From: a virus | Virus record (IMG/VR): IMGVR_UViG_3300020439_000073 | Location: 1-25,512 of that record | Length of the DNA: 25,512 bases | Direction: 5' to 3' (one strand) | In this document: positions 5,687 to 25,277 of the stretch, piece by piece | Layout: each line of letters opens with the position of its first letter | Numbering within the stretch: position 1 is the stretch's first letter | Made by a program: the position numbers and the translations under genes | The notes under the pieces: model-generated | Database searches by the model: none | Told to the model about the DNA's origin: nothing | The model's input: the letters and a program-made list of their open reading frames with translations, nothing else

Positions 5687-5703
5687 GACGATAAATTCAT
5701 AAA

Positions 5704-8700
5704 ATGTCAGAAACCAGAGTCCAGTTTAATACTATCGTATCTAATCAACTTCCTCTTTATGTGAGGGAGGACTTTCCGTTAATATCTGATTTTTTAAAGC
5801 AGTATTATCTTGGACAAGAGTATCAAGGTGGACCTGTTGATCTGATTCAAAATATTGACAAGTATATTAAAATTGATAATACGACTGGATTATCAGAATC
5901 GGTAGTATTATCTGGAAACTTAGATTTTGATTCCACAGTAATTAATATTGATGTTGATAAATCTCCCACTGGAACTTTGGGATTTCCGGATTCTTATGGT
6001 TTACTTCAGATTGGTGATGAAATTATAACCTATACTGGAAAGACACAATTTTCCTTTACTGGATGTGTTAGAGGGTTTGTTGGAATTACTTCTTATAGAA
6101 GTGATACTAATAGAGAAGAGGTAGTATTTAAAGAGTCACTTGCCGAAGATCATCTGAGTGGTTCTGATATTAAAAACTTAAGTTGCTTATTTTTAAAAGA
6201 ATTTTTACTCAAAACTAAACATCAAATCTTACCTGGATTTGAAGATAGAGAATTATCAAGTAACTTAGACCAAAATCTGTTTCTTAAGCAATCAAAAGAT
6301 TTTTATTTAAGCAAAGGTACTGATAGATCTTTTGAAATCTTATTTAAAGCTTTATATGACGAAAACGTTCAAATCATCAGACCAGCAGAACGTTTAGTAT
6401 CTCCATCAAGTGCTCAATACTTAGTTACTAATGATCTTGTCGTAGAACCAATTTCGGGTGATCCTTCTGAGTTGGATCATTCTACATTATATCAAGATGC
6501 ATATAAATTTGATAACAATATTCAAAAATCTTATGCACCAATTACCAGCGTTGAAAAAGTAAACGCTGGGTATGGTGTAACTTTTTATAGATTAAAGCTT
6601 GATTCTGGATACAATAGAGATATTGAGGAAGAAGGTGCAATATACGGCAATTTTAAAGTACAACCATCCACAAAAATTATTGGAAATGTTTCTGCAGGAT
6701 CTACAATTGTTGATGTCGAATCAACGGTAGGTTTTGCTCATAGTGGAGAGTTATTTGTAAATTATTCTGATAGAACTACTGGGGTGGTATCATACACTTC
6801 AAAATCTCCAACTCAGTTTTTTGGCATAACTGACTTAGATAGCAATATTTCAGATACTGCTGTTGTTGGTATTAATACTTTTGCGTATGGACAATCTGCG
6901 ATAGATGGTAGTTTAATTGAAGTTAGAATTAACTCTGTTTTAAATTCAATTGAAATTCCAGAAGTATCTGACGAATTAGAAAAAGGTACTACTGCAAATA
7001 TTACAAGTTATGGATTTACAGAAGTAAGTCCTAAAACTCGCAATTGGTTCTATAATGTTGCTCCAATTTATAAAGTCTCTACTGTTGAATTAGTAGATAT
7101 TTCTGATAATACATATAAAATTACTCTAAATGTGCCAAATCAATTTAGATCTGGTGATAAATGCGTAATTATTGGATCGGATTCTTCAAGAAAAGAGGCA
7201 AATATTTCCACAATAATTGGAGAAAAATCCTTTACTATAAAAGGTCAGGGAGTTCTTGACACCAATTTAACATATAAATTGCAAAGAACTATTCTTAAAG
7301 GATTATCCTCAGTACTTCCATCAGTAGAATCATTCTCTACTGATGTTGATAGGGTTTACAAAAATACTTCTAATGATTACTTAGTATCTTCACCATCTAT
7401 TCCAAATTATGGATCACAGTCTTTAAATTCAACACTTAGAGAGAAAACTTTTTCGGGAACATTTTTGGGCGATGAATTTGAAATTACTGATCATGGATTT
7501 TACACTGGAGAATCTATTTACTATAAGGCAAACTCAGTTTCTCAATCCGCAACGGATTCTTTCGGAAATACAATTACTGAAACAGTTCGTGGACAAGGAC
7601 TTTTTAGTGATGGTTTATATTTTATCAAACGAATAAATGAAAGTAAAGTAAAATTTGCTAAAAGTAAGGAAGATATTTACAATTCCAAATTTATTTCTTT
7701 AGATACTGAGGTAACAGTTACTGGTAGTAGCATAAAACCATTTTCTTTCAATGATAAAACGGTAAAACCGCAAAATATTTTAAGAAAAATTTCTACACCA
7801 ATAAGTGATGGAACTAGGTCAGAAACCAGACCAGGTGGTACTGGAATATTTGTTAATGGTGTAGAACTTTTAAACTACAAATCTAGTGATTCTATTAAAT
7901 ATGGAAAAATTGAAAGTATTGATGTTTTATCTAGAGGTGTAAATGTTGATGTTATAAATCCACCAGATTTTGTTATTAAAGATGCTGTTGGGTATGGAGC
8001 ATCTGCACATCTTGCAGTTTCCGGTCAATTTACCGACATTAAAATTGTAAATCCTGGTTTTGATTATGTAGAAACTCCTACCCTAAAAATAGAAGGTGGT
8101 AATGGTCAAGGAGCTACTGGTTCTGTCAATATGAAATCTATTGACCATGCAGTAGAATTCTATGCAGATAGAGAATCTAATCAAGTCAATATAACTCAAT
8201 CTACAATTGGATTTTCAACATACCATAAATTTAGAAATGCAGAAAAAGTAATTTATAGAACAAAATCACAAGATGCAGTTTCTGGAATAGTAACTGATTC
8301 ATCTTACTATGTAAATGTTGTAGATGAATTTACCGTAAAACTTCATGAAACTGAAAGTCAAGCATTAACTGGGATCAATACGGTATCATTAACTTCTTAT
8401 GGTGTAGGAAAGCACTCTTTACAATCTTTTAGTAAAAAGTTAGTTGTACAATCAATAAACGTTACAGATGGTGGTTCTGGTTATGAAAATAAAAAAAGAA
8501 CTGCTCAGTCAGTATCTGGAGTCAGTACATCTTCAAATTCCTTTAGTATTAGAAACCATGACTATAATTCAGGAGAAAGAGTAAAGTATACATGTACAGA
8601 TACTCCTGCCTCTGGAATTTCTGTAGGGTCAGAGTATATTCTGACTAAGATTGATAATGATTCTTTTAAGTTATCTGATGTTGGTCCATCTAATGATATC

Positions 8701-11700
8701 AATTTTTACTATAGAAATAAGCAATATGTAGATATCACATCTGTTGGAGTAGGAACTCATATATTCAACTATCCCGATATTACAGCAACTTTAATTGGAA
8801 AAGTTGGAATATCTTCAGTTGGCACAGAAACATTTAAAGCATCAATACTTCCTGTTGTAAGAGGAACAGTTCAGTCTGTTCATATAGAAAATTCTGGTTC
8901 TAATTATGGATCTGAAGAGATTTTAAATTTTGATAGACAACCACAAATTTTATTAAATTCTGGATCAAATGCACAGGTAAAAGCAATTGTTAGTGGTGGA
9001 TCAATTCAAGAAGTTATTGTTCTGAATAGTGGTTCTGGTTATCATTCTACTCCGGATTTGATTATAAATGGTGATGGTTTTGGGGCAGTGTTAACTCCTA
9101 TCATCGAGAATGGTTCATTAGTTTCTGTTACTGTAATTGAAAAGGGAATTGGATTTGATGAAGATAGTACGACAATTGACATTATTCCTTCGGGATCTAC
9201 TACTAATGTTCCAAAGTTTAAATGCAATATCCAAAACTGGACTGTAAATTTGTTTGAAAAATATGAAAATGTATTTACGGATGATGATGGATTTTTAACA
9301 GAAGGTCTTCATAAAAATGAAATTCAATACACTCACATCTATACTCCAAGAAAATTAAGAGAGAAGGTTTACAGTGTAAATCAAGTTGGTGAGATTTTAT
9401 ATGGAAAACAAGATTTAAGAATAATTAATAACGAGGAATCTGATTCAAATTATCACTCTCCAATATTAGGGTTTGCATATGATGGAAACCCAATTTATGG
9501 ACCTTATGCATATTCGTCCAAGACTGGTGGATTTATAACTCAGATGTTGTCAGGATATTCTTTATTGGATAATCAGATTAATAGACCATCCACTTCAATT
9601 TATCCAGAAGGATTCTTTGTTGAAGATTATGAATATAAAAAGTCTTCTAGTGATTCTGTTCTTGATGAAAATAATGGAAGATTTTGTGTAACACCAGATT
9701 ATCCAAATGGAACTTATGCATATTTCACAGCAATAGAGAGAAGATCTCCAGAAACTTCTGGAAGATTTAAAAATTATAAAAAACCAGCTTTCCCATATGT
9801 CATCGGACATAATTATCATTCAATTCCAAATAACTTTAACTTTGTCAATAGTTCAAACTCTGATAATTATGATTTGGAAGCAAATGGTTGGAGAAGAAAT
9901 ACAAGTCCAATCAATTTAATAGAAGATGAATCTCAGTATCCATATTTGAATATTCCGAATAAATTAAATCAAACTGCTGAGATTATTGGAACAAATCCAG
10001 GTGTTGTTGGTGGTGTTGGTATTATTACTGGAGGAACTGGATATAAAGTTGGAGAATCTATAACTTTTGACAATAATAACACTGGAGGAACAGGAGCACA
10101 GGCTAAAATTAGTAGAGTTAAAGGCAAGACAGTAAGTTCTATAAGTGTTAACTCAATCATCTTGGAAAATATTGAGTTCTATCCTGGACAAAAGGATGGT
10201 GAGTATTTTGCCTTTGCAAATTCCCCACATGGAATAGAGAATTTAGATATAATTTCTATTTCAGGTTTATCTACATCATCTTCTTTCCTTGAAAGATCTT
10301 ATGTTGCTGGAATATCTACTAATAAATTAACTTTAGCTGGTGTTGGAACTACAGCAGTCGCAATCGGAACAGATGGATCTACTGGATTAACAACATACCT
10401 CAGTGTTACTGGAAATCTTGGATATCCTCATATTAGAGAGAATGACATTCTCCAGTCTGGAACTGAGAAGTTTAAAGTTCTGAATATTGATGTTGAGTCT
10501 TCAAGAATAAGAGTTTTAAGAAAAGTAAGTGGGTCAATTGGAACCACATTATCGGTAGGAGATCATTTCTACGAAATACCAAGAAAACTGAAGATTTCTT
10601 CTGGATTCAAAACAGATTCTAACTTAAAATTTAATAAACAAATATACTTTAATCCAGCAGAATCTATTGGTGTCGGAATAGGTTCAACATTAAATATCTC
10701 CAATCCTGGATTTGGGGCTACTCAATTGTTTGTACCAACCAAATCAATCTTTGTAAAAAATCATAACTTAGAGACGGGTGATCAATTAACTTATTCTGCT
10801 GGAGATGGTGGAAGTGGAATCATAGTTCAAGATGAGACTAACGTTGGGGTTGGAACAACCCTAGTAGATGGACAAAAGTTATTCGTTGCCAAAATTGATA
10901 ATAATTTAATTGGACTCTCTACAGTAAGAGTTGGACTCGGAACTACTGGAACATTTGTTGGAATTGCTGAGACTTGTAGAAATTCTACAACGTTACTCTT
11001 CACAAATGTTGGTGCTGGAGACACTCATAGTTTTGTAACCAACTATTCTGCAATAACTGGAGAAATTCAACGAAATGTGGTTACGGTTTCAACTGCACAA
11101 TCCCATGGATTAAGTCCAGATCATAATGTAACGGTTTCTATAAGTCCAAAAAATACTAAAAATGTAGTATTGGCATATAATGACACTCATAGAAGAATAA
11201 TTGCAAATCCTATATCATTTGTCTCTGCGGGAGTTAACACCACAGCAAATTCAATTACTCTCAATTCGCATGGACTGGAAACCGGAGATAAAATTATCTT
11301 TACTTCAGATGCTCCTTCTGAAGGACTGAATAGTGAAAAGATCTATTATGTAGTAAAAGTTAACAGGAATAAAATCAAACTTTCAAATACTCTTACTGAC
11401 TCTAAGAAAATTAATCCAGTAATTGTTAATATTAATAGTGCTTCTCATGGTACTATTAATCCTATTAATCCAAAAATTGATCTCTACAAAAACTCTACAG
11501 TAGTATTTGATCTATCAAGTGACTCTTTGTCTTATGTAAAACAAGGTTCTACATATTCTGCATTTGAATTTAACTTATATGAAGATGTGAACTTTACTTC
11601 TATATGGAATACTTCAGGATCTACCGAAGTATTTGAATTATCAAAATCGGGCAAAGTCGGAACTTCCGGAGCATCTGCAACTTTATTAGTAAATGATAAG

Positions 11701-14700
11701 ATTCCAGAGAATTTATACTATCGTTTAGATCCTATCTATGAAGGAGATATTCCTGCAATAAAATCTGAGATTATCTCTGATGATGAGGTTGTTTCTGGAA
11801 GTAAATTACTAATCAGAAACAGTAAGTATAATGGAACTCATGATATAACAGTCAATTCCACTAATAGTTTTACATATACTCTTACTGATGTTCCTGAAGA
11901 AGTTTCTTATGGATCTACATCAAATATTTCTTACATAACTGATTGTACTCATACAACAGGAGAGATTGCTCGGATTGATATCATAAATCCAGGTAGAAAT
12001 TATTATTCAACACCAGGAATTACTACTATTAATACTTCAAGTGGTGAAGGAGCAATTCTTAAAGTTACTCCTAAGAATATTGGTGGACTGAAGAAATTAA
12101 ATTTCAAAGACATTGGGTTTAATTATCCTTCAGATAAAACTTTGAATCCAAGAGTTTTATTCCCACAAACAATTAGAATTGATTCTCTTGCTTCAGTAGA
12201 ATCTATTGGAATAACTTCTTTTGGAAGAGGATTTAATATTCCACCAAAATTAATTGTTGTTGATGGCAAAACAAATAAAGTAGTAGAAGATTTAGCATTC
12301 AAGGTAACTCTTGGTAATAGAGACGTTGAAATTCTACAAAATACTAATGGTATCAGTAATGTAACTCCACTGATTATACCAACTGAAAGTGGTGCTGGTG
12401 TAGGAATTAAAACAATAACATATAACTCTTCGGGAATTGCTACAGCAACTCTTTCTGTAGGATTTAGTACTATTAACTCATTCCCATTTGCAGTTGGAGA
12501 CAAAGTTTTAATTGAAAGTACGAGTGTTAGTGTTGGATCTACTGGAAAAGGATTTAACTCTGCAAATTATGATTATAAATTATTCACCTTAACTGGAGTA
12601 ACTGAAAATCTTGGCGGAATTGGTGATGTTACCTTTGATATGTCGGATTTCTTGAAGGAATCAGAAATTCCTGGAGAATATGACACTATTAATTCTACAG
12701 GAAAAATTCTTGCACAAAAACACTTCCCAATTTTTGATGTAAATCTTGTTACTAGAGATTATTCTATTGGTGAAGTTGTAAAATCAGAAAACGCAACTGG
12801 TGTTGTAGAAGGATGGGATTCAAAGACATCATCTCTTAGAGTTTCTTCAGATGATAATTTTACTGTCGGTAATTTAATTGAAGGAACTTCTTCAAAAGTT
12901 ATTGGTGTAGCAAATTCAATCAAGGCATATGAGTCATATGCTAATTTTGAAGCAATGTCTAAAACGACTCTTGGGTGGTTAGATAATACAGGATCTTTGA
13001 ATTCGGATCTTCAGAGAATTCAGGATAGTTACTACTATCAAAATTTTGCATATTCAATTAAATCAAAAGTTCCATATGACACTTGGAACGAAACTGTATC
13101 TACATTAAATCACACTTTAGGATTTAAAAAGTTTGCAGATCTCCAAATGGAGTCTTCTAATGATAATAATGGATCTGTTAAGTCAAATTCATCTTCATTT
13201 GATCAAGTAACGAATCTTGATGGATTTGCAAGCTTGCATTGTGTTCATGATTTTGACTTAGTTACGGAAACTAATAGAACTCAAACTTCTGGACTTATTT
13301 CAAATGAGATTGTTTTCTCTAATAGAATTCTTATAGATTTCTTTGAATCTGTTGGTAATAGAGTTCTTTCTATTGATAATTTCCAATCTCAGTTTAATAG
13401 TAATCCTAGACCAACTGAATTTTCAATTATTGATACATTTAGCTCGTCTGAAATAAGAACAAGAAAGTTTATTACTTATGTAAGAGACAAGAGATTTACT
13501 GCACAAAGACAGATGATGTTGGTAAATGTCATGCATGATGACATTTTTGGATATATTAACCAATATGCTAGGGTTGAAACTGCATATGATCAAGGATCTT
13601 TTGATCTTTCATTCTCTTCAGGAACTGTAGATGCAAATCTTCAATTCTATCCAACTAAGTTTACTGTAAATGATTATAATGTCAGTGTTCTTTCTTATGA
13701 CTTTAAGGACACACTTCTTGGAACAGGAACAACAAGTTTAGGTGGTGTAGCAATTATTGATACTACAAGTGTTGATGTAAACGCTGGTGTAAAAACTACT
13801 ATAGTATCAATTGCAAATACATATACTTCCGCAAAAGTTTTAGTAAGTATCACTGCAGATACTTCTATTACTTCTGGATTAGATAATAATTTTGAATATC
13901 AAGAACTGAATATTCTACATAATGGTTCTGACATTAATATGCTAGAAATTGCAAGAATGTCAACTGAGATATCAAATTCTTCTCCTGGTCTTGGAACTTA
14001 TCATCCTTATTTTGAAGGAGATAATTTAAATATTGATTTTTATCCAGCAACTGGAATCGGAACTACCGGAGTTATTAATACAATTTTTGTTGGACTTGCT
14101 ACAGAAACTTCTAGTGGAATTGGAACTATTGAATTAAGTAGAGCAAAGGTTGAAGCAAAAACTACTACTATCGCAACAACACCTTCTCCCGGACCAGTTT
14201 CTGTCGCTCAGTATTCTAATGATTATGACGGAGCATACTTTATTGCTCAAGTTGTTGATACTATGAATAATGAACGTCAGTTATCTGAAATTGTTGTCGT
14301 TGACGATTATGTAGAGTCCACAACAACTGCAGATACTTGTTATGTTGAATATGGAAATATTGAAACTTCTAGTGGATTGGGAACTTTTGGAGCAGTAGTT
14401 TCTAGTGAAGGAGTTGTTTCACTGGTATTTACTCCAATCGCAAATACTGATATTGAAGTTAATGTTTATACAAACGCAATTGGTCTAATTGAAGATACTA
14501 CTGTCCCATCTGGTGTAGATTTTACTAACACATCAATTAATTCTATAGTTGGAGAGTATGAAGGAACTGAACGTGATGTGAAGAGAAAATTCTATCTTGA
14601 ACATGAAAATCTTGGAATTTTTGAAAGATACTTTGAAGGAGATAATCCAAGTGTTGTTAACACTCTTCAAAATTTAATTTCTATTCCAAATCATTATTTT

Positions 14701-17700
14701 GTTACTGGTGAAAAAATTAGATATGCTCATGTTGGAGCTGCAAATTCATCAATCGTTATCGCACCCACAACTTTTGTTGGTGCATCTAATACAACATTCT
14801 TACCTGCAGAAAATCTTTATGTAGTTAAGTATGATGAAAACAATATTCAAATTGCGACCAGTGCAGAAAATGCACTTAAAGCAATACCTGAAGTTGTAGA
14901 TATTACTTCAGTTGGAATTGGAACTTCCCACAGATTTATATCAACTAATCAGAACGCAAAAGTTCTTGTTTCTATTGATAACATTATACAATCCCCAGTA
15001 GTATCAACAGCAGTAACAACTACTCTTTCAAAAGAACTCACTGTTTTGGATGATTTAATTGCTTTCAGTGGAATTACTTCTTTCTTTGGAACAGATTTGA
15101 TTAAGATAAATGATGAAATAATGAAGATTGAAGGTGTTGGTATTGGTAGTACCAATGTAATGAGAGTACGTAGAGGTTGGTTAGGAACAAATCTTGGAGT
15201 TGGTGTTACTGGCGACTTAGTCACTAAAGTTGTTGGAAACTATAACATTGTTGATAACGATATTATTTTCTCAGAAGCTCCTTTTGGAAATGTTCCATTG
15301 GGATTAGAAACAAATGAACCTGATGAAAGAGATTGGTCTGGAATATCAACCTCTTCAAGCTTCCATGGAAGAAGTTTCATGAGATCTGGCATCCTACAAG
15401 GATCTAATGAGACTTATTATAAGAATTATCTTTTTGATGATATTTCTCAAGAATTTAATGCATTAAATAATGAGTTTACATTAAAGTCTGATGGATCGGA
15501 TGTTTCAGGAATAGAAAATGAAAATGCAATCATTCTTGTAAATGATGTTTTCCAGGCACCAGGAATTTCTGATCAATATGTACTTGAAGAAACTGCTGGA
15601 ATTACTTCAGTAAGATTCCAAGGAACTGAAACAACACCATTAGGACCTGATGTTGGAATTTCTGCTTTCCCTAGAGGTGGAGTTATTGTTTCAGTTGCAT
15701 CTACTGAAGGACTTGGATTCCAACCATTAGTTGCTGCAGGAGGAACTGCTGTTGTTTCTGGACTTGGAACTATTCAATCAATCAGTATCGGAAATAGTGG
15801 TTCTGGATATAGAGCAGGTATTCAAACAGTTGTAAATGTTGGTGTTGGAACTTCTAGCACTGGAACTCCAAATATTGAGTTTATTGGAACAGCTGCTATT
15901 AGTGGTGGACACATTGTTAGTGTTGCAATCACAAATCCAGGATCTGGATACACTTCTACAAATCAACCATATGTTGTATTTGATCCACCACTTAGTTACT
16001 CTAATTTACCACTGAAGTATAGTTCGGATTCAGCATCTGGTTTAGGTACTGAGGCAACTATTGATGTAGTTGTTGGTCAAGGATCTAGTGTTATTGACTT
16101 TGAAATTAAAAATACGGGATATGCGTATGGCAATGGTGAAATTCTCACAGTTGAAGTTGGCGGATCTACTGGAATCCCAACCACTTCATCATCATATAAA
16201 GAATTCCAAATAACTATTGACGAAGTTGCTACTGATAAGTTTAGTGGTTGGTCTTTAGGAACTCTAGAAGTTCTTGATAATGTTGACAAATATATTGATG
16301 GTCAACGTAAGGATTTCCCATTATTCCTTAATACTGAAAGAATATCTATTGTTGCAAGGAAAGGATCAAGAATTAGAGTTCAGGATGTTCTTTTAGTATT
16401 CGTTAATGACATTCTTCAAGTTCCTGGAGAATCTTATATATTTGAGGGTGGAAGTGTAATTACATTTACTGAACCAATTGCTGTTGGAAATAATATCAAT
16501 ATTTTGTTCTATAAAGGAACAGGAGATAGTGATGTTATTCTTAGAAATGTTGTCAATACAGTTAAAAAAGGTGATACTCTGCAAATAGTTCATAATAAAT
16601 CAATAGGTCAGCAAAAGTATTTGACTGAAGAAATAAGAGATGTTCAAGATATTCTTTCTACTGATCTTGTTGAGACAAATACTTATGATGGTCCAGGAGT
16701 TACGAATGATGTAACATTAGAAAGACCAGTTGTATGGTGCAGACAAACTGAAGATAAATTTATCAATCAAATTGCTGTTGGTAAAGATAGAGAACTTTAT
16801 GAACCAACTATTAATCCAATTTCTTATATAATCAAACCAGTTGCAATTGGATCAACAACGATTTATGTTGATAGTTTAAGACCTTTATTTGATGGTAGAA
16901 ATGAAAGTGATACTGATTTGTCTTTCCAAAATAAAGTCAAATTTATATCACAAAAAGTTAGAACTGGAGTAGCTGCAACTGCAGTTGTTTCTGGTCTTGG
17001 TACGATTTCATCAATTTCAATTTCTGATGGTGGATCTGGTTATTCTTCAGTACCAAATGTAACGATTGGTAATGTAGTTGGATCGGGTGCAGTAGCAACG
17101 GCAGTTCTTACTAATGGTTCGGTGACTTCTATAACATTGACAAATGCTGGAACAGGATATACAAATACAAAGCCACCACAAGTTCTTATTGCTCCACCTT
17201 CACATTCTGAAGAAGAAGTTACTGTTGATTCTTACTCAGGAGATAATGGAGTTATTGTTGGATTTGGAACTACAACTATAGATAATGTTGATGAAATGAT
17301 TGTTGATTTACATATTCCTTATGATTCTTCCCTTAGAGACACTTCTTTAGTTGGAACAGCAGTTACTTTGAGTTCTATATCAGTCAATGATTATTTCACA
17401 ATCTTTAATTCTAATGTAAGTGTTGGAAATTCTCCATTATATACATACAGCACTGATAGTGCTACTACAGTTGGATTAGCAACACATTTTATTGACACAG
17501 TATATCAGGCAAAAAGAGTTGAAGTTATTTCTAGAGAAGTTGCTGGAGTTTCTACAAATGTATTGAGAGTTAATTCCGTTCTAACTGGTATTGGAACAAT
17601 CAACTTTAGTAGTAGTAATGTTACATTAGATAATACTTCAGTTACTTTTGATACAACTGCAGATGCTGTGGGGTATGCTGGTGGAATATCAACTTCAAAT

Positions 17701-17856
17701 TATTTTGGAGAATTCTCTTGGGGTAAAATTAATCTTGTAGGAAGATCCAAGCAGGTCTCTTACAATGCAGAAGTTCTTAATGGATATGCTGGTATTTCAA
17801 CATCAGTTATTGTGACAAGAAAAGATTCACTCAGATCCAAGAGATACCTAGTATAA
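5704..17856 (+). CDS. Giant 4050-aa baseplate/tail protein, probable gp7 counterpart
   Basis: This single uninterrupted frame encodes 4050 residues, about four times the length of T4 gp7 (1032). It directly follows gp6, where gp7 stands in T4. The N-terminal 230 residues are helical (DFPLISDFLKQYYLGQ, LKEFLLKTKHQILPGFEDRE). They include residues 199-218, DFYLSKGTDRSFEILFKALY, which I align with T4 gp7 DFYSTKGIEASYKFLFKVLY. Residues 2442-2461, SYYYQNFAYSIKSKVPYDTW, align with gp7 SYYVMKIKSNLPSSRW. A preceding SH3-like stretch (about 2345-2400) also fits gp7. Both matches come from remembered T4 sequence. Between them lie beta-rich modules in at least two repeat families and a YHYH-type region (about 1230-1380, with FAYDGNPIYGPYAY and NGRFCVTPDYPNGTYAYF). 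The C-terminal 1550 residues hold more modules. No signal peptide or membrane segment is visible. Function: baseplate wedge and possibly peripheral fibre-like extensions. Gene existence and virion role are near certain; gp7 identity is likely. Confidence 0.8.
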   Translation: MSETRVQFNTIVSNQLPLYVREDFPLISDFLKQYYLGQEYQGGPVDLIQNIDKYIKIDNTTGLSESVVLSGNLDFDSTVINIDVDKSPTGTLGFPDSYGLLQIGDEIITYTGKTQFSFTGCVRGFVGITSYRSDTNREEVVFKESLAEDHLSGSDIKNLSCLFLKEFLLKTKHQILPGFEDRELSSNLDQNLFLKQSKDFYLSKGTDRSFEILFKALYDENVQIIRPAERLVSPSSAQYLVTNDLVVEPISGDPSELDHSTLYQDAYKFDNNIQKSYAPITSVEKVNAGYGVTFYRLKLDSGYNRDIEEEGAIYGNFKVQPSTKIIGNVSAGSTIVDVESTVGFAHSGELFVNYSDRTTGVVSYTSKSPTQFFGITDLDSNISDTAVVGINTFAYGQSAIDGSLIEVRINSVLNSIEIPEVSDELEKGTTANITSYGFTEVSPKTRNWFYNVAPIYKVSTVELVDISDNTYKITLNVPNQFRSGDKCVIIGSDSSRKEANISTIIGEKSFTIKGQGVLDTNLTYKLQRTILKGLSSVLPSVESFSTDVDRVYKNTSNDYLVSSPSIPNYGSQSLNSTLREKTFSGTFLGDEFEITDHGFYTGESIYYKANSVSQSATDSFGNTITETVRGQGLFSDGLYFIKRINESKVKFAKSKEDIYNSKFISLDTEVTVTGSSIKPFSFNDKTVKPQNILRKISTPISDGTRSETRPGGTGIFVNGVELLNYKSSDSIKYGKIESIDVLSRGVNVDVINPPDFVIKDAVGYGASAHLAVSGQFTDIKIVNPGFDYVETPTLKIEGGNGQGATGSVNMKSIDHAVEFYADRESNQVNITQSTIGFSTYHKFRNAEKVIYRTKSQDAVSGIVTDSSYYVNVVDEFTVKLHETESQALTGINTVSLTSYGVGKHSLQSFSKKLVVQSINVTDGGSGYENKKRTAQSVSGVSTSSNSFSIRNHDYNSGERVKYTCTDTPASGISVGSEYILTKIDNDSFKLSDVGPSNDINFYYRNKQYVDITSVGVGTHIFNYPDITATLIGKVGISSVGTETFKASILPVVRGTVQSVHIENSGSNYGSEEILNFDRQPQILLNSGSNAQVKAIVSGGSIQEVIVLNSGSGYHSTPDLIINGDGFGAVLTPIIENGSLVSVTVIEKGIGFDEDSTTIDIIPSGSTTNVPKFKCNIQNWTVNLFEKYENVFTDDDGFLTEGLHKNEIQYTHIYTPRKLREKVYSVNQVGEILYGKQDLRIINNEESDSNYHSPILGFAYDGNPIYGPYAYSSKTGGFITQMLSGYSLLDNQINRPSTSIYPEGFFVEDYEYKKSSSDSVLDENNGRFCVTPDYPNGTYAYFTAIERRSPETSGRFKNYKKPAFPYVIGHNYHSIPNNFNFVNSSNSDNYDLEANGWRRNTSPINLIEDESQYPYLNIPNKLNQTAEIIGTNPGVVGGVGIITGGTGYKVGESITFDNNNTGGTGAQAKISRVKGKTVSSISVNSIILENIEFYPGQKDGEYFAFANSPHGIENLDIISISGLSTSSSFLERSYVAGISTNKLTLAGVGTTAVAIGTDGSTGLTTYLSVTGNLGYPHIRENDILQSGTEKFKVLNIDVESSRIRVLRKVSGSIGTTLSVGDHFYEIPRKLKISSGFKTDSNLKFNKQIYFNPAESIGVGIGSTLNISNPGFGATQLFVPTKSIFVKNHNLETGDQLTYSAGDGGSGIIVQDETNVGVGTTLVDGQKLFVAKIDNNLIGLSTVRVGLGTTGTFVGIAETCRNSTTLLFTNVGAGDTHSFVTNYSAITGEIQRNVVTVSTAQSHGLSPDHNVTVSISPKNTKNVVLAYNDTHRRIIANPISFVSAGVNTTANSITLNSHGLETGDKIIFTSDAPSEGLNSEKIYYVVKVNRNKIKLSNTLTDSKKINPVIVNINSASHGTINPINPKIDLYKNSTVVFDLSSDSLSYVKQGSTYSAFEFNLYEDVNFTSIWNTSGSTEVFELSKSGKVGTSGASATLLVNDKIPENLYYRLDPIYEGDIPAIKSEIISDDEVVSGSKLLIRNSKYNGTHDITVNSTNSFTYTLTDVPEEVSYGSTSNISYITDCTHTTGEIARIDIINPGRNYYSTPGITTINTSSGEGAILKVTPKNIGGLKKLNFKDIGFNYPSDKTLNPRVLFPQTIRIDSLASVESIGITSFGRGFNIPPKLIVVDGKTNKVVEDLAFKVTLGNRDVEILQNTNGISNVTPLIIPTESGAGVGIKTITYNSSGIATATLSVGFSTINSFPFAVGDKVLIESTSVSVGSTGKGFNSANYDYKLFTLTGVTENLGGIGDVTFDMSDFLKESEIPGEYDTINSTGKILAQKHFPIFDVNLVTRDYSIGEVVKSENATGVVEGWDSKTSSLRVSSDDNFTVGNLIEGTSSKVIGVANSIKAYESYANFEAMSKTTLGWLDNTGSLNSDLQRIQDSYYYQNFAYSIKSKVPYDTWNETVSTLNHTLGFKKFADLQMESSNDNNGSVKSNSSSFDQVTNLDGFASLHCVHDFDLVTETNRTQTSGLISNEIVFSNRILIDFFESVGNRVLSIDNFQSQFNSNPRPTEFSIIDTFSSSEIRTRKFITYVRDKRFTAQRQMMLVNVMHDDIFGYINQYARVETAYDQGSFDLSFSSGTVDANLQFYPTKFTVNDYNVSVLSYDFKDTLLGTGTTSLGGVAIIDTTSVDVNAGVKTTIVSIANTYTSAKVLVSITADTSITSGLDNNFEYQELNILHNGSDINMLEIARMSTEISNSSPGLGTYHPYFEGDNLNIDFYPATGIGTTGVINTIFVGLATETSSGIGTIELSRAKVEAKTTTIATTPSPGPVSVAQYSNDYDGAYFIAQVVDTMNNERQLSEIVVVDDYVESTTTADTCYVEYGNIETSSGLGTFGAVVSSEGVVSLVFTPIANTDIEVNVYTNAIGLIEDTTVPSGVDFTNTSINSIVGEYEGTERDVKRKFYLEHENLGIFERYFEGDNPSVVNTLQNLISIPNHYFVTGEKIRYAHVGAANSSIVIAPTTFVGASNTTFLPAENLYVVKYDENNIQIATSAENALKAIPEVVDITSVGIGTSHRFISTNQNAKVLVSIDNIIQSPVVSTAVTTTLSKELTVLDDLIAFSGITSFFGTDLIKINDEIMKIEGVGIGSTNVMRVRRGWLGTNLGVGVTGDLVTKVVGNYNIVDNDIIFSEAPFGNVPLGLETNEPDERDWSGISTSSSFHGRSFMRSGILQGSNETYYKNYLFDDISQEFNALNNEFTLKSDGSDVSGIENENAIILVNDVFQAPGISDQYVLEETAGITSVRFQGTETTPLGPDVGISAFPRGGVIVSVASTEGLGFQPLVAAGGTAVVSGLGTIQSISIGNSGSGYRAGIQTVVNVGVGTSSTGTPNIEFIGTAAISGGHIVSVAITNPGSGYTSTNQPYVVFDPPLSYSNLPLKYSSDSASGLGTEATIDVVVGQGSSVIDFEIKNTGYAYGNGEILTVEVGGSTGIPTTSSSYKEFQITIDEVATDKFSGWSLGTLEVLDNVDKYIDGQRKDFPLFLNTERISIVARKGSRIRVQDVLLVFVNDILQVPGESYIFEGGSVITFTEPIAVGNNINILFYKGTGDSDVILRNVVNTVKKGDTLQIVHNKSIGQQKYLTEEIRDVQDILSTDLVETNTYDGPGVTNDVTLERPVVWCRQTEDKFINQIAVGKDRELYEPTINPISYIIKPVAIGSTTIYVDSLRPLFDGRNESDTDLSFQNKVKFISQKVRTGVAATAVVSGLGTISSISISDGGSGYSSVPNVTIGNVVGSGAVATAVLTNGSVTSITLTNAGTGYTNTKPPQVLIAPPSHSEEEVTVDSYSGDNGVIVGFGTTTIDNVDEMIVDLHIPYDSSLRDTSLVGTAVTLSSISVNDYFTIFNSNVSVGNSPLYTYSTDSATTVGLATHFIDTVYQAKRVEVISREVAGVSTNVLRVNSVLTGIGTINFSSSNVTLDNTSVTFDTTADAVGYAGGISTSNYFGEFSWGKINLVGRSKQVSYNAEVLNGYAGISTSVIVTRKDSLRSKRYLV
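7480..14945 (+). repeat. Diverged protein-level repeats: HG-x-TG-x-YY modules in the giant gene
   Basis: At least six copies of a beta-rich module of about 70-95 residues can be recognised in the translation. They lie near 7480-7746, 8212-8440, 8545-8775, 10753-11040, 11260-11460 and 14685-14945. The shared pattern is an H-G/N/D-aromatic start, a GE or GD pair, an aromatic or Tyr strand, a middle YYV or YFI strand, a D-x-x-x-x-KL turn, and in most copies a closing SVGVGTH-F. DNA identity between copies is low, so they are old duplications. Confidence 0.6.
7900..17190 (+). repeat. Diverged protein-level repeats: GSGY-x-x-P-x-V-x-I strands
   Basis: A second repeat family of about 30-40 residues has the form I-x-I-x-N-x-G-S-G-Y-x-x-x-P-x-V-x-I followed by a G-x-GA-x-A turn. 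Clusters occur near 7900-8130, 8860-9170, 10000-10120, 11955-12280, 15740-15975 and 16985-17190. Examples are ISISDGGSGYSSVPNVTI and VAITNPGSGYTSTNQPYVVF. The regular Gly-Tyr turns suggest a stacked beta structure such as a beta-prism or beta-helix. Confidence 0.6.
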
Positions 17857-17878: not shown

Positions 17879-20539
17879 ATGGCATATCAGGGTATAGGGA
17901 CAGGTACATTACCAAATGATAACACTGGTGATAACCTAAGAGATGCTGGTATAAAAATTAACGATAATTTTTCTGAGTTATATAGCCATTTCGGAGATGG
18001 AACTAATCTGACAGCAATTGTCGGGACTGGTATAGCAACTGAAAGTGGAGTAGTAGGAACTGGTGTCACTCTTATTGATTTTAGAGGATCTGCGGTTGGT
18101 GAAGTTGTAGTTGGATCTGGAATTGCTACTATTACTGTTAGTGATTTCCAAGAAAGTTTATATGGAAATACTGATGTTGATACTCACTTAAATCGTTCAT
18201 CTGCTGGATCCAATGAAGTTTTAAGTTGGAATGGTAGTGATTATGAATGGGTAAGTAATGCTGGATATACAAACTCTAATGTAGATACTCATCTCAACCA
18301 ATCTACAGCAACTGATGGTCAAGTTTTAAGTTGGAACACCACTTCTGGTGATTATGACTGGGTAGATCAGTCTACTGGTGGTGGAGGTGGTGCAACTGAC
18401 CTTAATGGTTTAACCGATGTAACCATCACTAATGCATCTTCTGGACAAGTCCTTAAGTATGATGGTTCTAATTGGGTCAATGATACTGATGCTACTGGAG
18501 GTAGTGGAGGAATTTCTGGTGTTGTAGTTCAAGAAGAAGGATCTTCTGTAGGGACTGCAACGACTATTAACTTTGTTGGAACTGGAGTAACTGCAACATT
18601 TGATAGTGGTATTGCTACAGTTTCTATTATAGGAATTCCAACAGATACTGGTGACCTTACTAATAATGCTGGATTTACAACTACAGGTGCATTAGTAGGA
18701 CTAGCTACTACTGGAGATGTGTTCTCTGGCGATTATACCGATTTAACCAATAAACCTACAATTCCAACAGATACTGGTGACCTTACTAATAATGCTGGAT
18801 TTGCAACTACAGGTGCATTAGTAGGATTAGCAACTACTGGAGCACTTGTAGGATTTATTACTTCTGGTGATTCTGGAGCAGGATTAACTGCATTAACAGG
18901 AGCTGATGAAGGAACATGGGGAAATTCAACTAATTCCGCTCAAATAACTGTAGATGCCAACGGCAGAATTACAGGTATTACTAATGTTGCAATCTCTGGA
19001 GGTGGTGGAGGTGGTGGCATTTCTGGAATTAATGTTTTTAATAATGATACTTCTCTCGGAATATCAACTATTATCAATTTTGGCGATAACCTAAATGCTA
19101 CTGCCATAGGAAGTTCCATTAGTGTTAGTGTGACTGGTGTTGTTACATCTGTAGTAGGATTAGCAACAACAGGTGCATTAGTAGGACTAGCTACTACTGG
19201 AGCATTAGTAGGATTAGCAACCACAGGTGCATTAGTAGGATTAGCAACCACAGGAGCACTTGTAGGATTAGCGACTATTGGAGACGTGTTCTCTGGTAAT
19301 TACAATGATCTGACTAATAAACCTACAATTCCTGCCAGTCAAGATCTTGATAATGTTTTGGGAGTAGGTAATACTTCTTCTACTGGAATGAGTGTTGGTC
19401 TTGTTACTGCAACAGCAGTTACTGGATTTAGTTATCTTCAAGCACCTCATGGTAGCACAGTTTCATTCACTGTTACTGTTGCAAGTAAGGATTCTTCTCA
19501 CAGATATAATGGAACAGGTAGTGGTAGTGGATATTTGATCAATGGGGTTCAGGCACCATTCTTAACACTAACACCTGGAAGAACTTATAGATTTACAAAT
19601 GACAATACGGGAAGTCATCCTCTCAAGTTCTATCTTGAAGCAGATAAAACCACAGAATATACTTCAGGTGTAAATTTCCAGAATACCTATACTGAGATTG
19701 CAGTAGATGATCAGACTCCAACTGTCCTTCATTATCAATGTACTGCTCATGGATATATGGGTAATGCAGTACAAACTAATTCCAATAAAGTAAATTCACC
19801 TTATGGTATAGTTGGTGCTGGTTTTTCAACTGCTAGTGGAACATCATCGCAATTCTTAAAGGCAGATGGTTCTGTTGATAGTAATACTTATCTGACATCA
19901 GAGACAAGTCACAGTGATGTTCTTGTTGATGGTGACTTTACCAGTAATGGTTTCATGAAACGCACTGGTGCTGGAACATATTCTATTGACAGTAATACAT
20001 ATCTTACTTCTTATACGGAAAATGATCCAGTAGTTGCTGCCATAAATGGAATCGTCAAGTCTAATGGAACAACCATTTCTGCAGCAACAGCAGGAACTGA
20101 TTACTTAACCCCATCAGGTGATGGTTCTGGTTTAACTGGTATTATAACATCAATTAGTGCTGGAACCAATATTACTTTAACTGGTGGTCCTACAGGCATA
20201 GTTACTATTAATAGTGGGACAGCAACCACTACTGGAACATTTACTGCTACTGCAGGTGTTGCATATACTGCAAACACCTATACATCTTCAGACTTTGTAA
20301 CTACAGAATATACATTATTCTTCCAGCACTCGTCAGGAATTCAATCTCAAAAAGTTCTGGTTATGGATGATGAAACTACTGCATACTCTCAAGAATATGC
20401 AATTATGTCTAGCAATAGTCCTTTAGTTTCTGTTGGTGCAACAATTAAGAGTAATAATGTAGAACTTTGGTTTACACCAGAATCTGGAGTAAGTGGAATC
20501 ATTACTTACAAATTTACTAGAGACTCAATATCTCAATAA
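17879..20539 (+). CDS. Tail-fibre-like structural protein with cupredoxin-like domain
   Basis: The 886-residue product opens with a module common in marine myovirus structural proteins: GTGTLPNDNTGDNLRDAG followed by KINDNFSELY. Then come Gly/Ser/Thr-rich fibre repeats (ADGSVDSNTYL-type, LTNNAGFTTTGALVGLATTG, DLTNKPTIP), a poly-Gly linker near residue 375, and four tandem VGLATTGAL units at 426-461. Residues about 520-635 look like a cupredoxin: TYRFTND, then HPLKFY (His580), then HYQCTAHGYMG with Cys621, His624 and Met627. The C-terminal 130 residues are beta-rich and may be the tip. There is no signal peptide. The protein is probably a trimeric fibre or baseplate-attached spike contacting the host. 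Late expression is expected from the promoter overlapping the preceding stop. Whether copper is bound is unknown. Confidence 0.75.
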   Translation: MAYQGIGTGTLPNDNTGDNLRDAGIKINDNFSELYSHFGDGTNLTAIVGTGIATESGVVGTGVTLIDFRGSAVGEVVVGSGIATITVSDFQESLYGNTDVDTHLNRSSAGSNEVLSWNGSDYEWVSNAGYTNSNVDTHLNQSTATDGQVLSWNTTSGDYDWVDQSTGGGGGATDLNGLTDVTITNASSGQVLKYDGSNWVNDTDATGGSGGISGVVVQEEGSSVGTATTINFVGTGVTATFDSGIATVSIIGIPTDTGDLTNNAGFTTTGALVGLATTGDVFSGDYTDLTNKPTIPTDTGDLTNNAGFATTGALVGLATTGALVGFITSGDSGAGLTALTGADEGTWGNSTNSAQITVDANGRITGITNVAISGGGGGGGISGINVFNNDTSLGISTIINFGDNLNATAIGSSISVSVTGVVTSVVGLATTGALVGLATTGALVGLATTGALVGLATTGALVGLATIGDVFSGNYNDLTNKPTIPASQDLDNVLGVGNTSSTGMSVGLVTATAVTGFSYLQAPHGSTVSFTVTVASKDSSHRYNGTGSGSGYLINGVQAPFLTLTPGRTYRFTNDNTGSHPLKFYLEADKTTEYTSGVNFQNTYTEIAVDDQTPTVLHYQCTAHGYMGNAVQTNSNKVNSPYGIVGAGFSTASGTSSQFLKADGSVDSNTYLTSETSHSDVLVDGDFTSNGFMKRTGAGTYSIDSNTYLTSYTENDPVVAAINGIVKSNGTTISAATAGTDYLTPSGDGSGLTGIITSISAGTNITLTGGPTGIVTINSGTATTTGTFTATAGVAYTANTYTSSDFVTTEYTLFFQHSSGIQSQKVLVMDDETTAYSQEYAIMSSNSPLVSVGATIKSNNVELWFTPESGVSGIITYKFTRDSISQ
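18635..18834 (+). repeat. Direct repeat of about 74 bases, period 126, in the fibre gene
   Basis: The block encoding IPTDTGDLTNNAGF followed by TTGALVGLA occurs at 18635-18708 and again at 18761-18834, nearly identical at the DNA level. The second copy starts 126 bases after the first, so the reading frame is kept. The high DNA identity, in contrast to the old repeats of the giant gene, suggests recent duplication. Confidence 0.75.
19154..19282 (+). repeat. 27-base tandem repeat array (VGLATTGAL) in the fibre gene
   Basis: Four complete 27-base units (19154-19180, 19181-19207, 19208-19234, 19235-19261) encode VGLATTGAL. A partial fifth (19262-19282) ends as VGLATIG. Units differ mainly at third codon positions. 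Further single units occur at the 126-base repeat upstream. Being a multiple of three, copy number can change without breaking the frame. Confidence 0.85.
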
Positions 20540-20569: not shown

Positions 20570-22897
20570 ATGATACGTACTGATACCGATAGTCTTGATC
20601 AACAAGCACTAGAAGAATTTAATGCGTATAAAGAAACACTATCAAAAGAACCAGAAGGTGATGTAAAAAAACAATATTATGTTGGATGTCATACTTCTGT
20701 TGATTGGCAGTATATTGACTCAATGCTCCACCAAGAAGGAACCTCAGAAGTTCATGTCCCCGTCTGTTCATGTGAGTGTGTTGATAAGTGTAAGCATACT
20801 GAAAATATTGGTATCTACTATCTAACAGACACCGAAGCTAATGAATTAGAAAATCACCCAAAAGTAAAATTTGTTAATATCAATCAGGATGCATACCAAG
20901 GTACATATAAAATTCATCCTAGAGACCTTATAACAACATCAAAATTTGAGAGATATACAAATAATGAAAGGTGTTATCGTGATATTCAAACATCTTTGCC
21001 TTATACTCCAAATGCTAATGAAATAAATCGTAGTGGATATCAGTTGAGAAGATGTATGCAACACTCTGATCCATGGTGGGGGGAGAGTGGAACATATCAA
21101 ACTAAAGATGATGTTGTTCTTAATAGTAAGATTGAGCAATATGGTGATGGTAAAGATGTTGATGTAATTGTTACTGATACTGGAGCATGGTACGGTCATC
21201 CTGATTTTAATAACAGCACTGGAGATGGCCCACAAAGATACGTAGGAGGTAATGTCCTTCCTGGAAATGGAACATGTGACGTTTTATCCGTAGTATTGGA
21301 CGCACCTTATTATATTGATCCTGATTTCTTTAATGCTGATGCCGCGAATAGGTTAATGACTAGATGGGATGGTACTATTGTTCCTGTTGAGAGTTATGCT
21401 CGATCTTGGTGGGGTACAGAAAGTACTAGTACAAGATCCGCTAAATTTGTTAGTACTGATTTGGGTGGAACGGCTACCATAGGTAGTAATGAAGATTTTG
21501 GAACAATTAGTGTCCCGTCTACTTATACGAGAGCAAATAATCAAGGAGATAATGCAAATCGTAATTATAGTCCTGAGTATACTACCTATAGTACCGATTT
21601 TCATGCAACTCCATGCATGAGTGTTTGTTATGGAAAATCTTATGGATGGGCATTTAATGCTAATAAATGGCACATTAATAATATTGGTGGTTATGATCTC
21701 GGCATACAAAATAGTTTTACTATGGTGAAAGTATTTCATCAATTGAAACCAAATAATCCTGCATATGGAACAAAAGATCCTACAATAACTAGTAATAGTT
21801 GGGGATATCGTTCTACTGATCATAGGAATGCCACTACTTCTACACCATTTTATTATTTCTTTAGAGAAGGTACGGGAACAGTTAATAGTAGTGGATCATA
21901 TACGGGCACTACTTCTACTTCTGGTATGCCAGAGTTTTTGAGAATGGTGGGATACTATGGTGATAATTATAGAATGAAGGGGGAGATGAAACCAAATTCT
22001 TTGGTTACTGCCGGTGAATCTATGATTGATGCTGGTGTTATATTTGTTGGTGCAGCTGGTAATAGCAATCAAAAACAAGTAAAACCAGGACATGCGGATT
22101 GGGATAATTTCTGGAGTACTAATAGTACTGATAGTTTGACTAATACGACTCATTATGAATTTGGATATGAATGTTATAATACAACAAATAGACCCGGATT
22201 TCCTCAACAACTGGGAAGGCATACTGACGGTCAAGGAAATTTGATTGTGAATAAAATAATTAATGTGGGTGCCTTGGACTATGCATATCAATCTACTGGC
22301 CATGAAAGAATGGTAAGATATAGTGACAGAGGTGAAGCTATAGATTGTTGGACTCCTGCGGATGATGCTTTGGCTGCAGCGAGCGGATCGACTGGAATAG
22401 AAGGAACATATCCTGAAACCTATAGTGGTTTATCAATTACTGCATATGATAATGATTTTGGTGGAACAAGTTCAGCATGTCCTGTAGCTGCCGGAATTAT
22501 TGCAACAAAATTGCAGTATAATAGATCGTGGGCATGGAGTGATGTAAAGACTTGGATAAGTGGATTAACAGCAGCAAATTCATCAGAGTTTTATTATGGT
22601 ACGGAGAACACTACTGCTAATGGTACTGGATGGACTGGTGATCTCTACACTCTTGATGGTGGTAATGGGATTGTAATGTATGATGCACCTACTGGAAATG
22701 AACCAAATATAGTTCCACAGACAATCCAAGTATCTGATACAAATCCTTCAGAAGGAGATTCGATAACAATAACTGTTGATTTGGCTGCATCTGCATCAGG
22801 ACCATTATATTACACAATAGAAGCAGTTCCTGGATCTTCTATTGATGCATCGGATTTTGATTCCGGTTCTTTATCAGGTAATGTTTCACTTACATAA
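20570..22897 (+). CDS. Subtilisin-like (S8) serine protease, first of a tandem pair
   Basis: The 775-residue protein has the S8 catalytic triad in order: Asp203 in VDVIVTDTGAWYGH, His345 in FHATPCMS and Ser634 in GGTSSACP. The oxyanion Asn498 lies in AAGNS. The His motif is HAT rather than the usual HGT. Residues about 35-110 resemble an I9-type pro-domain (ending YYLTDTEANELENHPKVKFV) with an unusual Cys cluster: Cys40, Cys68, Cys70, Cys74, His76. An insertion of about 100 residues between Asp and His (LPGNGTCDVL, DAPYYIDPDFFNAD) is shared with the next gene. The C-terminus (715-775) looks like the first half of a Calx-beta domain and then stops. No signal peptide is seen, so export would have to be on the virion. 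AGAGGGGA at 20553-20560 serves as Shine-Dalgarno. Likely role: virion-attached protease acting on fibres or the host surface; inferred. Confidence 0.85.
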   Translation: MIRTDTDSLDQQALEEFNAYKETLSKEPEGDVKKQYYVGCHTSVDWQYIDSMLHQEGTSEVHVPVCSCECVDKCKHTENIGIYYLTDTEANELENHPKVKFVNINQDAYQGTYKIHPRDLITTSKFERYTNNERCYRDIQTSLPYTPNANEINRSGYQLRRCMQHSDPWWGESGTYQTKDDVVLNSKIEQYGDGKDVDVIVTDTGAWYGHPDFNNSTGDGPQRYVGGNVLPGNGTCDVLSVVLDAPYYIDPDFFNADAANRLMTRWDGTIVPVESYARSWWGTESTSTRSAKFVSTDLGGTATIGSNEDFGTISVPSTYTRANNQGDNANRNYSPEYTTYSTDFHATPCMSVCYGKSYGWAFNANKWHINNIGGYDLGIQNSFTMVKVFHQLKPNNPAYGTKDPTITSNSWGYRSTDHRNATTSTPFYYFFREGTGTVNSSGSYTGTTSTSGMPEFLRMVGYYGDNYRMKGEMKPNSLVTAGESMIDAGVIFVGAAGNSNQKQVKPGHADWDNFWSTNSTDSLTNTTHYEFGYECYNTTNRPGFPQQLGRHTDGQGNLIVNKIINVGALDYAYQSTGHERMVRYSDRGEAIDCWTPADDALAAASGSTGIEGTYPETYSGLSITAYDNDFGGTSSACPVAAGIIATKLQYNRSWAWSDVKTWISGLTAANSSEFYYGTENTTANGTGWTGDLYTLDGGNGIVMYDAPTGNEPNIVPQTIQVSDTNPSEGDSITITVDLAASASGPLYYTIEAVPGSSIDASDFDSGSLSGNVSLT

Positions 22898-22904
22898 GGA
22901 GGTG
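22896..22904 (+). promoter_or_regulatory. Strong Shine-Dalgarno for the second protease
   Basis: AAGGAGGTG overlaps the TAA stop codon (22895-22897) of the first protease and lies six bases before ATG 22911. It is the best anti-16S match in the window, while most neighbours have weak sites. It supports efficient, coupled translation of the second protease. Confidence 0.7.
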
Positions 22905-22910
22905 CTTTAA

Positions 22911-25277
22911 ATGTCAGATCAAGATTTTTCTAGTTTTGAAGAGTATAAAGAAACTCTTCCTAAAGAACCGACGGATTCAAATGCTGAGAAAGAATATATT
23001 GTTGGATGTGCAAATCCTTCAGATTGGCAGCATATTCATGAAGTATTAATTCAAGATGGGTCGTCAGAAAATAATATTCCAGATCACTGTTGTGAATGTG
23101 TGGATAATTGTCCACATAGTGCCGTTAGGGGTACATATATATTAACTTCTTCTGAAGCGCAACAATTGATGCAGCATAATAAAGTTCTTTATGTTCATAT
23201 TAATTATAAAAAGTATTCAGGAACATATGCATCTTCTGGTATTGAGGATATTTGTTCATCACCAACAGAACCAACAACTAGATCTCAAAGATATTCTTCT
23301 ACCATTGAAAGTCAAAGGCATCTTTTTGGGCATGGATCAAGTATTTTGGATGATCCTCCAACATCTTCAAATCTTTATAGAGATGGATTTCATCTAACTA
23401 GACATATGCAAAAAGATGATCCTTGGTTTGGATCTTCAAATACTACGGTTATTAATAGAACAGTTGAACAATATGGTACTGGTTCTGATGTTGATGTTAT
23501 TGTAGCTGACACGGATTCATGGTTTGGACATACAGAGTTTCAAAATAATTTGGGATTAAACCCTGCTAATTATGTTGGTGGCAATGTCCTTCCTGGAAAT
23601 GGAACTTGTGATGTTTTGGATTTAGTTCTTGATGCTCCTTATTATATTGATCCAGATTTTTTCAATGCTGATTCTGCAAACAGACTGATGACCAGATGGG
23701 ATGGTACAACTGTTCCTGTAGAATCTTGGGCTATAAGTTGGTGGAATAATAACAGTACTTCCTATAGATCATCTAAATTTGTAAGCACTTCTAATGGAGG
23801 TACTGCGACGGGAAATAATGATTTTGGTGTTCTTTCTGGTATTACTAGTAATTATACTAGAGCAAGAAATAATGGATCTTATGATGCTAGAAATACTGGT
23901 TCTGGATCTCATGGAACCCCGTGTATGTCCCAAACATATGGCAGAACTTTGGGTTGGGCATATAATGCAAATAAATGGTTTGTTGCAATAATGGGTACTT
24001 ATTCACTTGATTATGAAACTTATTTTGATTTATTGAAGATATATCACCAAATAAAACCAATCAATTCGACATATAATACACAAGATCCAACAATATCTAG
24101 TAATAGTTGGGGCAAATCACATTCTACAACTACAGCAGTAAGTGGAAGTGGATATTATTATTTCCATGCCGGAACTACGGGATCTGGATCGGTTAGTTAT
24201 TCTAGTAGTACTAAACCAGAATTTATTAAATATCAATATCTTCAACCAGAGTATCTAGAATCACATGCTACTGTTACAGCAGCAAATGAAATGGCAAACA
24301 GTGGTGTAATTTTTTGTGCATCGGCTGGAAATTCTTATATGAAGCAGGTTCAAAGTAACCATGATGATTATGATAATTATATTGATACTGGTTCAAGTTC
24401 TAGTCTTTCAAATTCTACAACAACTAATAATCAGTATAATACTGTACCTAACGCAACTTGGTATAATACTACAAATAGGAGAGGATTTCCTCAACAATCA
24501 GGTGTAGATAGGACTACAACTCCATATACATATCCCGTAATTAGTGTTGGATGTTTAGATCATGAGTATGATAGTAGTGGAAAAGAAAGAAAAGTTAATT
24601 ATAGTAACATGGGCAATGCTGTCGATGTTTTTACTGCAGGTGATGACAGTTTGGGAGCTGCTTACAACTCTTCATCTTCTAATACTAAAAGATATGATGC
24701 TTTTTATGATCTTTCAGGAAATACTAGTAATAGTAGTATTACTGGTGGATCACTTGAGAGTCAAGATTTACGTTTTAATGGAACAAGTTCTGCATGTCCT
24801 ATTTTTGCCGGATTACTTGCCACAAAAGTTCAGTATAATAGGTCATGGAATTATGCTAATGCTAGAACTTGGATTCAAAGCCTAGGTCAAGTTGATTCAT
24901 CAGAATTTTATTATGGTTCTGAAGGAACTACTGCAAATGCAAGTGAATGGAGTGATACAAACAGTCTTCATGGAGCTCCTGGATATGTTGCATGGGATAA
25001 GGCATCAGTAACTGGTGGTACTCAAGGTGTTATAACTTTAAATATTTCTACAGATGCTTTAACCGAGGGTAATGAAACATTTAGGGTTAGGATTAGGGAA
25101 GGAAGCATTACTGGTCCTATAGTTGGAACTTCTGAAGATATAACTATCTCCGATTCTACATCTGGTGGTGGAGGAGGTAGTGGTGGTAACAATTTTGCCG
25201 ATTCTATTAAGTTTGCAAGTGGTGATGGTCTTATATTTAATGGTGCAGGCATGAAAATATACCTTTCGCCTTCCTAA
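22911..25277 (+). CDS. Subtilisin-like (S8) serine protease, second of a tandem pair
   Basis: This 788-residue paralogue follows the first protease by 13 bases. Its triad is Asp200 (VDVIVADTDSWFGH), His334 in canonical SHGTPCMS, and Ser626 (NGTSSACP), with oxyanion Asn474 (ASAGNS). The GTSSACP-x-x-AG segment and the HGTxC form recall kexin/furin-type subtilases, though that subfamily is not assured. The N-terminus (about 28-105) is an I9-like pro-domain with Cys33, Cys61, Cys63, Cys67 and His69 conserved from the first protease. The insertion between Asp and His is strongly conserved. After the protease core, residues about 704-750 (ITLNISTDALTEGNETFRVR, ending EDITISD) look like the second half of a Calx-beta domain. 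A Gly-rich linker and a terminal segment (FADSIKFASGDGLIFNGAGM) follow. No signal peptide is seen. All catalytic residues are present, so an active enzyme is expected. Confidence 0.87.
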   Translation: MSDQDFSSFEEYKETLPKEPTDSNAEKEYIVGCANPSDWQHIHEVLIQDGSSENNIPDHCCECVDNCPHSAVRGTYILTSSEAQQLMQHNKVLYVHINYKKYSGTYASSGIEDICSSPTEPTTRSQRYSSTIESQRHLFGHGSSILDDPPTSSNLYRDGFHLTRHMQKDDPWFGSSNTTVINRTVEQYGTGSDVDVIVADTDSWFGHTEFQNNLGLNPANYVGGNVLPGNGTCDVLDLVLDAPYYIDPDFFNADSANRLMTRWDGTTVPVESWAISWWNNNSTSYRSSKFVSTSNGGTATGNNDFGVLSGITSNYTRARNNGSYDARNTGSGSHGTPCMSQTYGRTLGWAYNANKWFVAIMGTYSLDYETYFDLLKIYHQIKPINSTYNTQDPTISSNSWGKSHSTTTAVSGSGYYYFHAGTTGSGSVSYSSSTKPEFIKYQYLQPEYLESHATVTAANEMANSGVIFCASAGNSYMKQVQSNHDDYDNYIDTGSSSSLSNSTTTNNQYNTVPNATWYNTTNRRGFPQQSGVDRTTTPYTYPVISVGCLDHEYDSSGKERKVNYSNMGNAVDVFTAGDDSLGAAYNSSSSNTKRYDAFYDLSGNTSNSSITGGSLESQDLRFNGTSSACPIFAGLLATKVQYNRSWNYANARTWIQSLGQVDSSEFYYGSEGTTANASEWSDTNSLHGAPGYVAWDKASVTGGTQGVITLNISTDALTEGNETFRVRIREGSITGPIVGTSEDITISDSTSGGGGGSGGNNFADSIKFASGDGLIFNGAGMKIYLSPS

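Follow-up and report, generated by a model that had tools for sequence, protein, structure and literature searches.

How did two adjacent phage protease genes come to carry, one each, the complementary halves of a single Calx-beta-like domain, and might those halves still work together? The question is raised by the window, the whole 25,512-nucleotide stretch analyzed here, which is an IMG/VR virus record of an uncultured marine-phage contig. In it a T4-like baseplate block lies upstream of a pair of S8-type proteases, which are followed by the beginning of another connector-like gene:

3239-3640: gp25-like gene
3644-5686: gp6-like gene
5704-17856: baseplate wedge protein of 4050 residues (phrog_2885)
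17879-20539, plus strand: tail-fiber/connector-like gene upstream of gene 1 (phrog_30742, tail fiber; phrog_677, baseplate wedge tail fiber connector)
20570-22897, plus strand: gene 1 (P0001), S8-family protease "A" of 775 residues, whose C-terminal end is the N-half of the Calx-like domain
22895-22913, plus strand: gene 1 stop codon, Shine-Dalgarno-like GGAGG and gene 2 ATG (TAAGGAGGTGCTTTAAATG), read directly from the sequence
22911-25277, plus strand: gene 2 (P0002), S8-family protease "B" of 788 residues, carrying the domain's C-half and the short tail usual in the family

The gene at 17879-20539 is, by synteny, a conserved neighbor in many marine relatives. The locus is best explained as the tail/baseplate locus of a cyanomyovirus-like phage, and the baseplate and fiber gene neighbors suggest that P0001 and P0002 may be virion-associated proteases. 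Among the papers searched, none was found on these phage proteases or on a phage Calx-beta domain.

P0001 and P0002 are 44% identical. P0001 scores 53.5 bits against PF00082 (curated cut-off 21.8), a cut-off also passed by the relatives L003, L043 and L044; P0002 itself has no match to this profile and belongs to the same PHROG as P0001, phrog_9158 (E 1.3e-94 for P0001, 1.1e-69 for P0002). The catalytic residues of P0001 are D203, H345, N498 and S634, and the catalytic D, H and S together with the oxyanion N are invariant in 76/76 family members compared, both window proteins included. P0001 residues 225-254 (window 21242-21331) show 93% amino-acid identity to P0002 with ordinary codon divergence; the ordinary synonymous divergence marks this block as strongly constrained by selection, and rules out recent gene conversion between the two genes. 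Because a strong Shine-Dalgarno-like site stands right behind the gene 1 stop, joint synthesis of the two proteases is likely: both would probably come from one mRNA, gene 2 being translated from its own Shine-Dalgarno site. Gene 1 lacks the short C-terminal tail that, by a crude pattern count, ends most relatives.

The split was delimited with a domain profile of 104 model positions, built from 42 intact phage domains of related loci with the window sequence excluded. P0001 residues 720-774 (22727-22891) match profile positions 2-54 only (E=1.4e-10), and the C-terminus of P0002 (about 25026-25160) matches positions about 54-103 only (E=8e-13). The parts concerned are these:

22727-22894, plus strand: N-half of the Calx-beta-like domain, strands A-D, profile positions 2-54, followed at once by TAA
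25026-25160, plus strand: C-half of the domain, strands E-G, profile positions about 54-103
25161-25274, plus strand: Gly-rich linker with the tail FASGDGLIFNG..., both also seen in B-type relatives

Excised, the halves score 40.6 bits (N-half) and 43.8 bits (C-half), and joined they score 87.6 bits; on the closest related proteases the range is 70-94 bits for intact domains, 41-51 for an N-half and 29-44 for a C-half taken separately, although these relatives contributed to the training of the profile and the window did not. Neither half is decaying, since the joined score is on a par with that of intact domains on related proteases. The preliminary description had proposed just this pair of half domains, one ending gene 1 before its stop and the other ending gene 2, and had called them complementary; both halves were confirmed, and the case for complementarity is now stronger than first claimed. 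The halves may overlap by a few residues if the SVTGG of P0002 just ahead of its C-half is a strand-D remnant; it could also be P0002's own linker.

The name of the domain needs some care. The halves are complementary on the profile of phage domains; in the alignment to Calx-beta proposed earlier, the joined 113 residues reach only 13.2 bits on Pfam Calx-beta (PF03160), below the cut-off of 27. Neither half alone was recognized in the Pfam search, and intact phage domains of relatives score at most 10.7 bits, likewise short of the cut-off. A Foldseek search with the model of the intact domain gave as top PDB match the integrin beta-4 Calx-beta domain 3h6a (E 4.1e-4), the only PDB match under 0.001; its TM-score is 0.37-0.47, and many generic Ig folds follow close behind with TM-scores under 0.55. 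The label Calx-beta-like is thus fair, and formal membership in Calx-beta is not. The domain profile also matched PDB 9ncf chain S, an "Immunoglobulin-like domain protein" (E 8.8e-6).

The break falls at a structural boundary. An AF2 model of the intact gene 2 domain of the relative L044 is all-beta (pLDDT about 86-93), with nine predicted strand segments, where an Ig-like Calx-beta sandwich has seven strands, at 14-18, 21-23, 27-33, 39-47, 69-75, 78-85, 96-104, 111-114 and 118-121. The window break maps to the D-E turn, after strand D (69-75) and before strand E (78-85). The model of the whole P0001, whose alignment left out four rows taken from annotated phage records, gives the protease core a pLDDT near 90, and the half domain (residues 711-775), which is covered by few alignment rows, has about 35-69 and only two strands; on its own, the P0001 half domain is given no confident fold by the model.

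Is such a split found elsewhere in the family? Scans of IMG/VR gave 185 protease ORFs, 152 of them unique. Outside the window the domain sits on 13 unique proteases and is full-length in 13/13 (an 11-bit match on L158, a different insertion, was disregarded in this count); halves were found only in the window. L003 and L043 are B-type single proteases with an intact domain after the core (two copies in L043) and no A-type partner, so that single-protease relatives with an intact domain do exist, as had been anticipated. L045 and L046 are B-type genes free of the domain, and the isolate genomes S-SSM7, S-SCSM2R and Sf-FS3 each have one protease, also without it. Copy number can be far higher: L031:5998-12441 and L035:5998-12426 belong to the protease family and have the Calx-like domain nine times in tandem behind the core. 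In L063, L073, L081, L082, L084 and L086 a fiber-like gene lies between two paralogous proteases.

The nearest relatives of gene 1 are themselves in tandems. P0001 forms a clade with gene 1 of L044, L049 and L050 (support 100/100), and its orthologue was found in five contigs, each with a B-type gene 35 bases downstream (5/5). Three of the five have a full domain and tail of their own on both genes, and in the other two the contig ends inside gene 2. Among these contigs none has A alone. The search for relatives of the gene 1 C-terminus found none. Exact DNA patterns for the window's junctions matched ten contigs, none with a family protease, and a further junction pattern search matched one unrelated contig that is not a family member.

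With one metagenome-derived contig to go by, and pattern matches to its junctions falling only outside the family, a metagenome assembly artefact has to be considered, in which strains were joined or sequence was dropped at both copies of the domain. We regard this as improbable: it would take two separate misjoins, the junction has a clean stop, Shine-Dalgarno site and start with both frames open, and there is no long shared repeat at the junctions that an assembler could collapse.

The descent of the parts of gene 2 bears on the other origins. Within the L044 group A and B have drifted equally (80.3% identity for A, 80.2% for B), whereas between the window and L044 identity is 61.4% for A-A and 48.1% for B-B; the A-A minus B-B difference is 13.4 points (95% interval 8.6-18.1) as against 0.2 within the L044 group. 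P0002 grouped with L044 gene 2 in 0/1000 bootstraps, although a tree with the two as sisters was not rejected by the AU test (p 0.199). By these comparisons the P0002 core is probably not a co-inherited orthologue of the tandem B genes; given the B-B gap and the bootstraps, it was probably brought in or exchanged once the A lineages had separated. The end of the protein has another affinity. The C-half with tail is 51% identical to L044 gene 2 (score 186), and scores 104-116 to L003 and L043 and 84-94 to A-type proteins; by sequence it is B-type, as if gene 2's own. The C-half alone is also closest to L044 gene 2, although without the tail local alignment parts A from B only weakly (97 vs 106). 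The tail itself matches L043 best, and the Gly linker is common to P0002 and L044 gene 2. The N-half of P0001 is not clearly A-type (30-36% identity), its best match being L043 (41%).

Since in related phages both proteases have a full domain, reshuffling of this modular tail locus looks likely. The account that we tentatively put first, at somewhat less than an even chance, is that a tandem protease locus recombined and that a start-plus-protease cassette thereby ended up within Calx-like sequence, at the D-E turn; this weight, like those of the other readings, is a matter of judgement and not of computation. Like the five contigs that have the gene 1 orthologue, the ancestor would have had A and B in tandem, each with its domain. 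Recombination would then have cut out or exchanged what lay between the two domains, leaving the P0002 core, a cassette of other descent, within Calx-like sequence, with the N-half before it and the B-type C-half and tail after it as one composite domain. Gene 1 would have lost the family tail and gene 2 kept it. Such an event fits the complementary profile ranges, the good preservation of both halves and the position of the break, as well as the firm grouping of gene 1 with genes that always have a B gene directly downstream, the apparently separate descent of the P0002 core and the B-type character of the C-half and tail. Against it are the lack of a second member with the same arrangement, the AU test, which leaves P0002 as a candidate sister of L044 gene 2, the uncertain type of the N-half and of the C-half without its tail, and the number of events needed, no fewer than two if simple or one if complex.

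If instead an A-B tandem was trimmed twice, A losing its C-half and tail and B independently losing its N-half, the complementarity would be coincidental or favored by function. The starting point would be the state actually seen in gene 1 relatives, the C-half and tail do look like gene 2's own, and a strand-D remnant in SVTGG would mean overlapping halves. Two unrelated events would however have to end within about 3/104 positions of each other, which happens by chance in ~7% of cases and so speaks for a common recombination event, and the P0002 core should then be the orthologue of L044 gene 2, from which it is too distant. We judge double trimming unlikely.

The preliminary description took as the simplest history the insertion of a start-plus-protease unit into the domain of a single ancestral gene. 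In its strict form this is one step into the intact domain of a single protease A, whose own C-half and tail now end gene 2. Exact complementarity at one structural turn, without degradation of either half, would follow from a single event; L003 and L043 show that a single protease gene can have the domain intact, L045 and L046 are B-type genes free of the domain that could have been inserted, and the P0002 core was apparently not co-inherited with A in relatives. The gene 2 protease cassette is flanked by the 8-base direct repeat CTTTAAAT (22905-22912 and 25036-25043), although a chance match of this kind is not rare in AT-rich DNA. There is also a precedent, since mitochondrial cox2 of scoliid wasps was divided by insertional gene fission into complementary genes, cox2a and cox2b (PMC5374615). 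Of the proposal, the complementary and undegraded halves, their split at one turn and the existence of single-protease relatives are borne out. Its single-gene ancestor fares worse: A alone is found in no contig and the tandem in 5/5, the C-half and tail fit B-type far better than A-type (186 vs 84-94), and the three complete tandems have both genes with full separate domains, an arrangement that the description itself had named as evidence to the contrary. We consider one-step insertion into a lone A gene unlikely, about as much so as double trimming.

As a separate observation, joining the sequence at the CTTTAAAT repeat keeps the frame of the domain, the TAA excepted. Programmed frameshift, readthrough or bypass was rejected as a means of rejoining the halves, as the ~2.1 kb that separates them encodes an entire protease, equipped with a Shine-Dalgarno site and start of its own.

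By itself neither half is expected to form a stable sandwich; the two therefore either dock to each other or persist as recent remnants. Docking in trans would rebuild one sandwich, hold the two proteases together and lend gene 1 the tail of gene 2; it is compatible with any of the histories above. Both halves are as well preserved as intact domains, the cut falls in a beta-turn, the N-half has no confident fold alone in the P0001 model, gene 1 is without the tail found in most relatives, and joint expression is likely. Preservation is equally expected from a recent split, however, and pairing is unneeded in L044-type relatives, where both proteases have a domain to themselves. Docking is plausible, but on balance doubtful. 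The corresponding model, held with the same reserve, is that the naturally split Ig-like domain works as a clasp for a heterodimer, strands A-D of gene 1 and E-G of gene 2 pairing two different proteases, with gene 1 reaching the virion via the gene 2 tail. Pairing, if true, would repair both losses at once, the broken domain and the missing tail of gene 1. The two enzymes would be made to pair one to one by a naturally split beta-sandwich, in effect a ready-made heterodimer clasp, and the locus would offer a view of how phage tail modules get fused and broken. If the halves do not pair, the locus still shows clearly how a domain is broken up where phage tail genes recombine fast, and intact relatives can be set beside it.

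In L138:2513-8022 a further Calx-like domain lies across a pair of neighboring ORFs, in phage adhesin-like genes with no protease. ORF 2513-4978 has profile positions 1-41 close to its start, with other repeats behind them, and ORF 4999-8022 opens directly with positions 37-103. As L138 is a second phage case across adjacent ORFs, interruption of this domain may not be unique to the window.

Among known systems, the closest are the complete S8 tandems of contigs 3300033273_000311, 3300020362_000206 and 3300020371_000004 (L044, L047, L052). They share with the window the position after a tail-fiber gene and before a connector-like gene, the gene order, and a gene 1 orthologous to P0001 at about 56-61% identity; they differ in the complete domain and tail on each protease and in a gene 2 that is not a close orthologue of P0002. 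The single S8 proteases L003 and L043 are of the same family with the domain at the same place after the core, but theirs is intact (and double in L043) and no A-type partner lies upstream. Calx-beta proper (PF03160; 3h6a) is the best PDB fold match to the intact phage domain model, but the TM-scores are low and the phage domains miss the Pfam cut-off even when intact. The split cox2 (PMC5374615) is alike in that complementary polypeptides derive from one protein, with inserted sequence between the halves; there, however, one protein was split and a heterodimer has been inferred, whereas in the phage the cut lies in an accessory domain on two separate enzymes.
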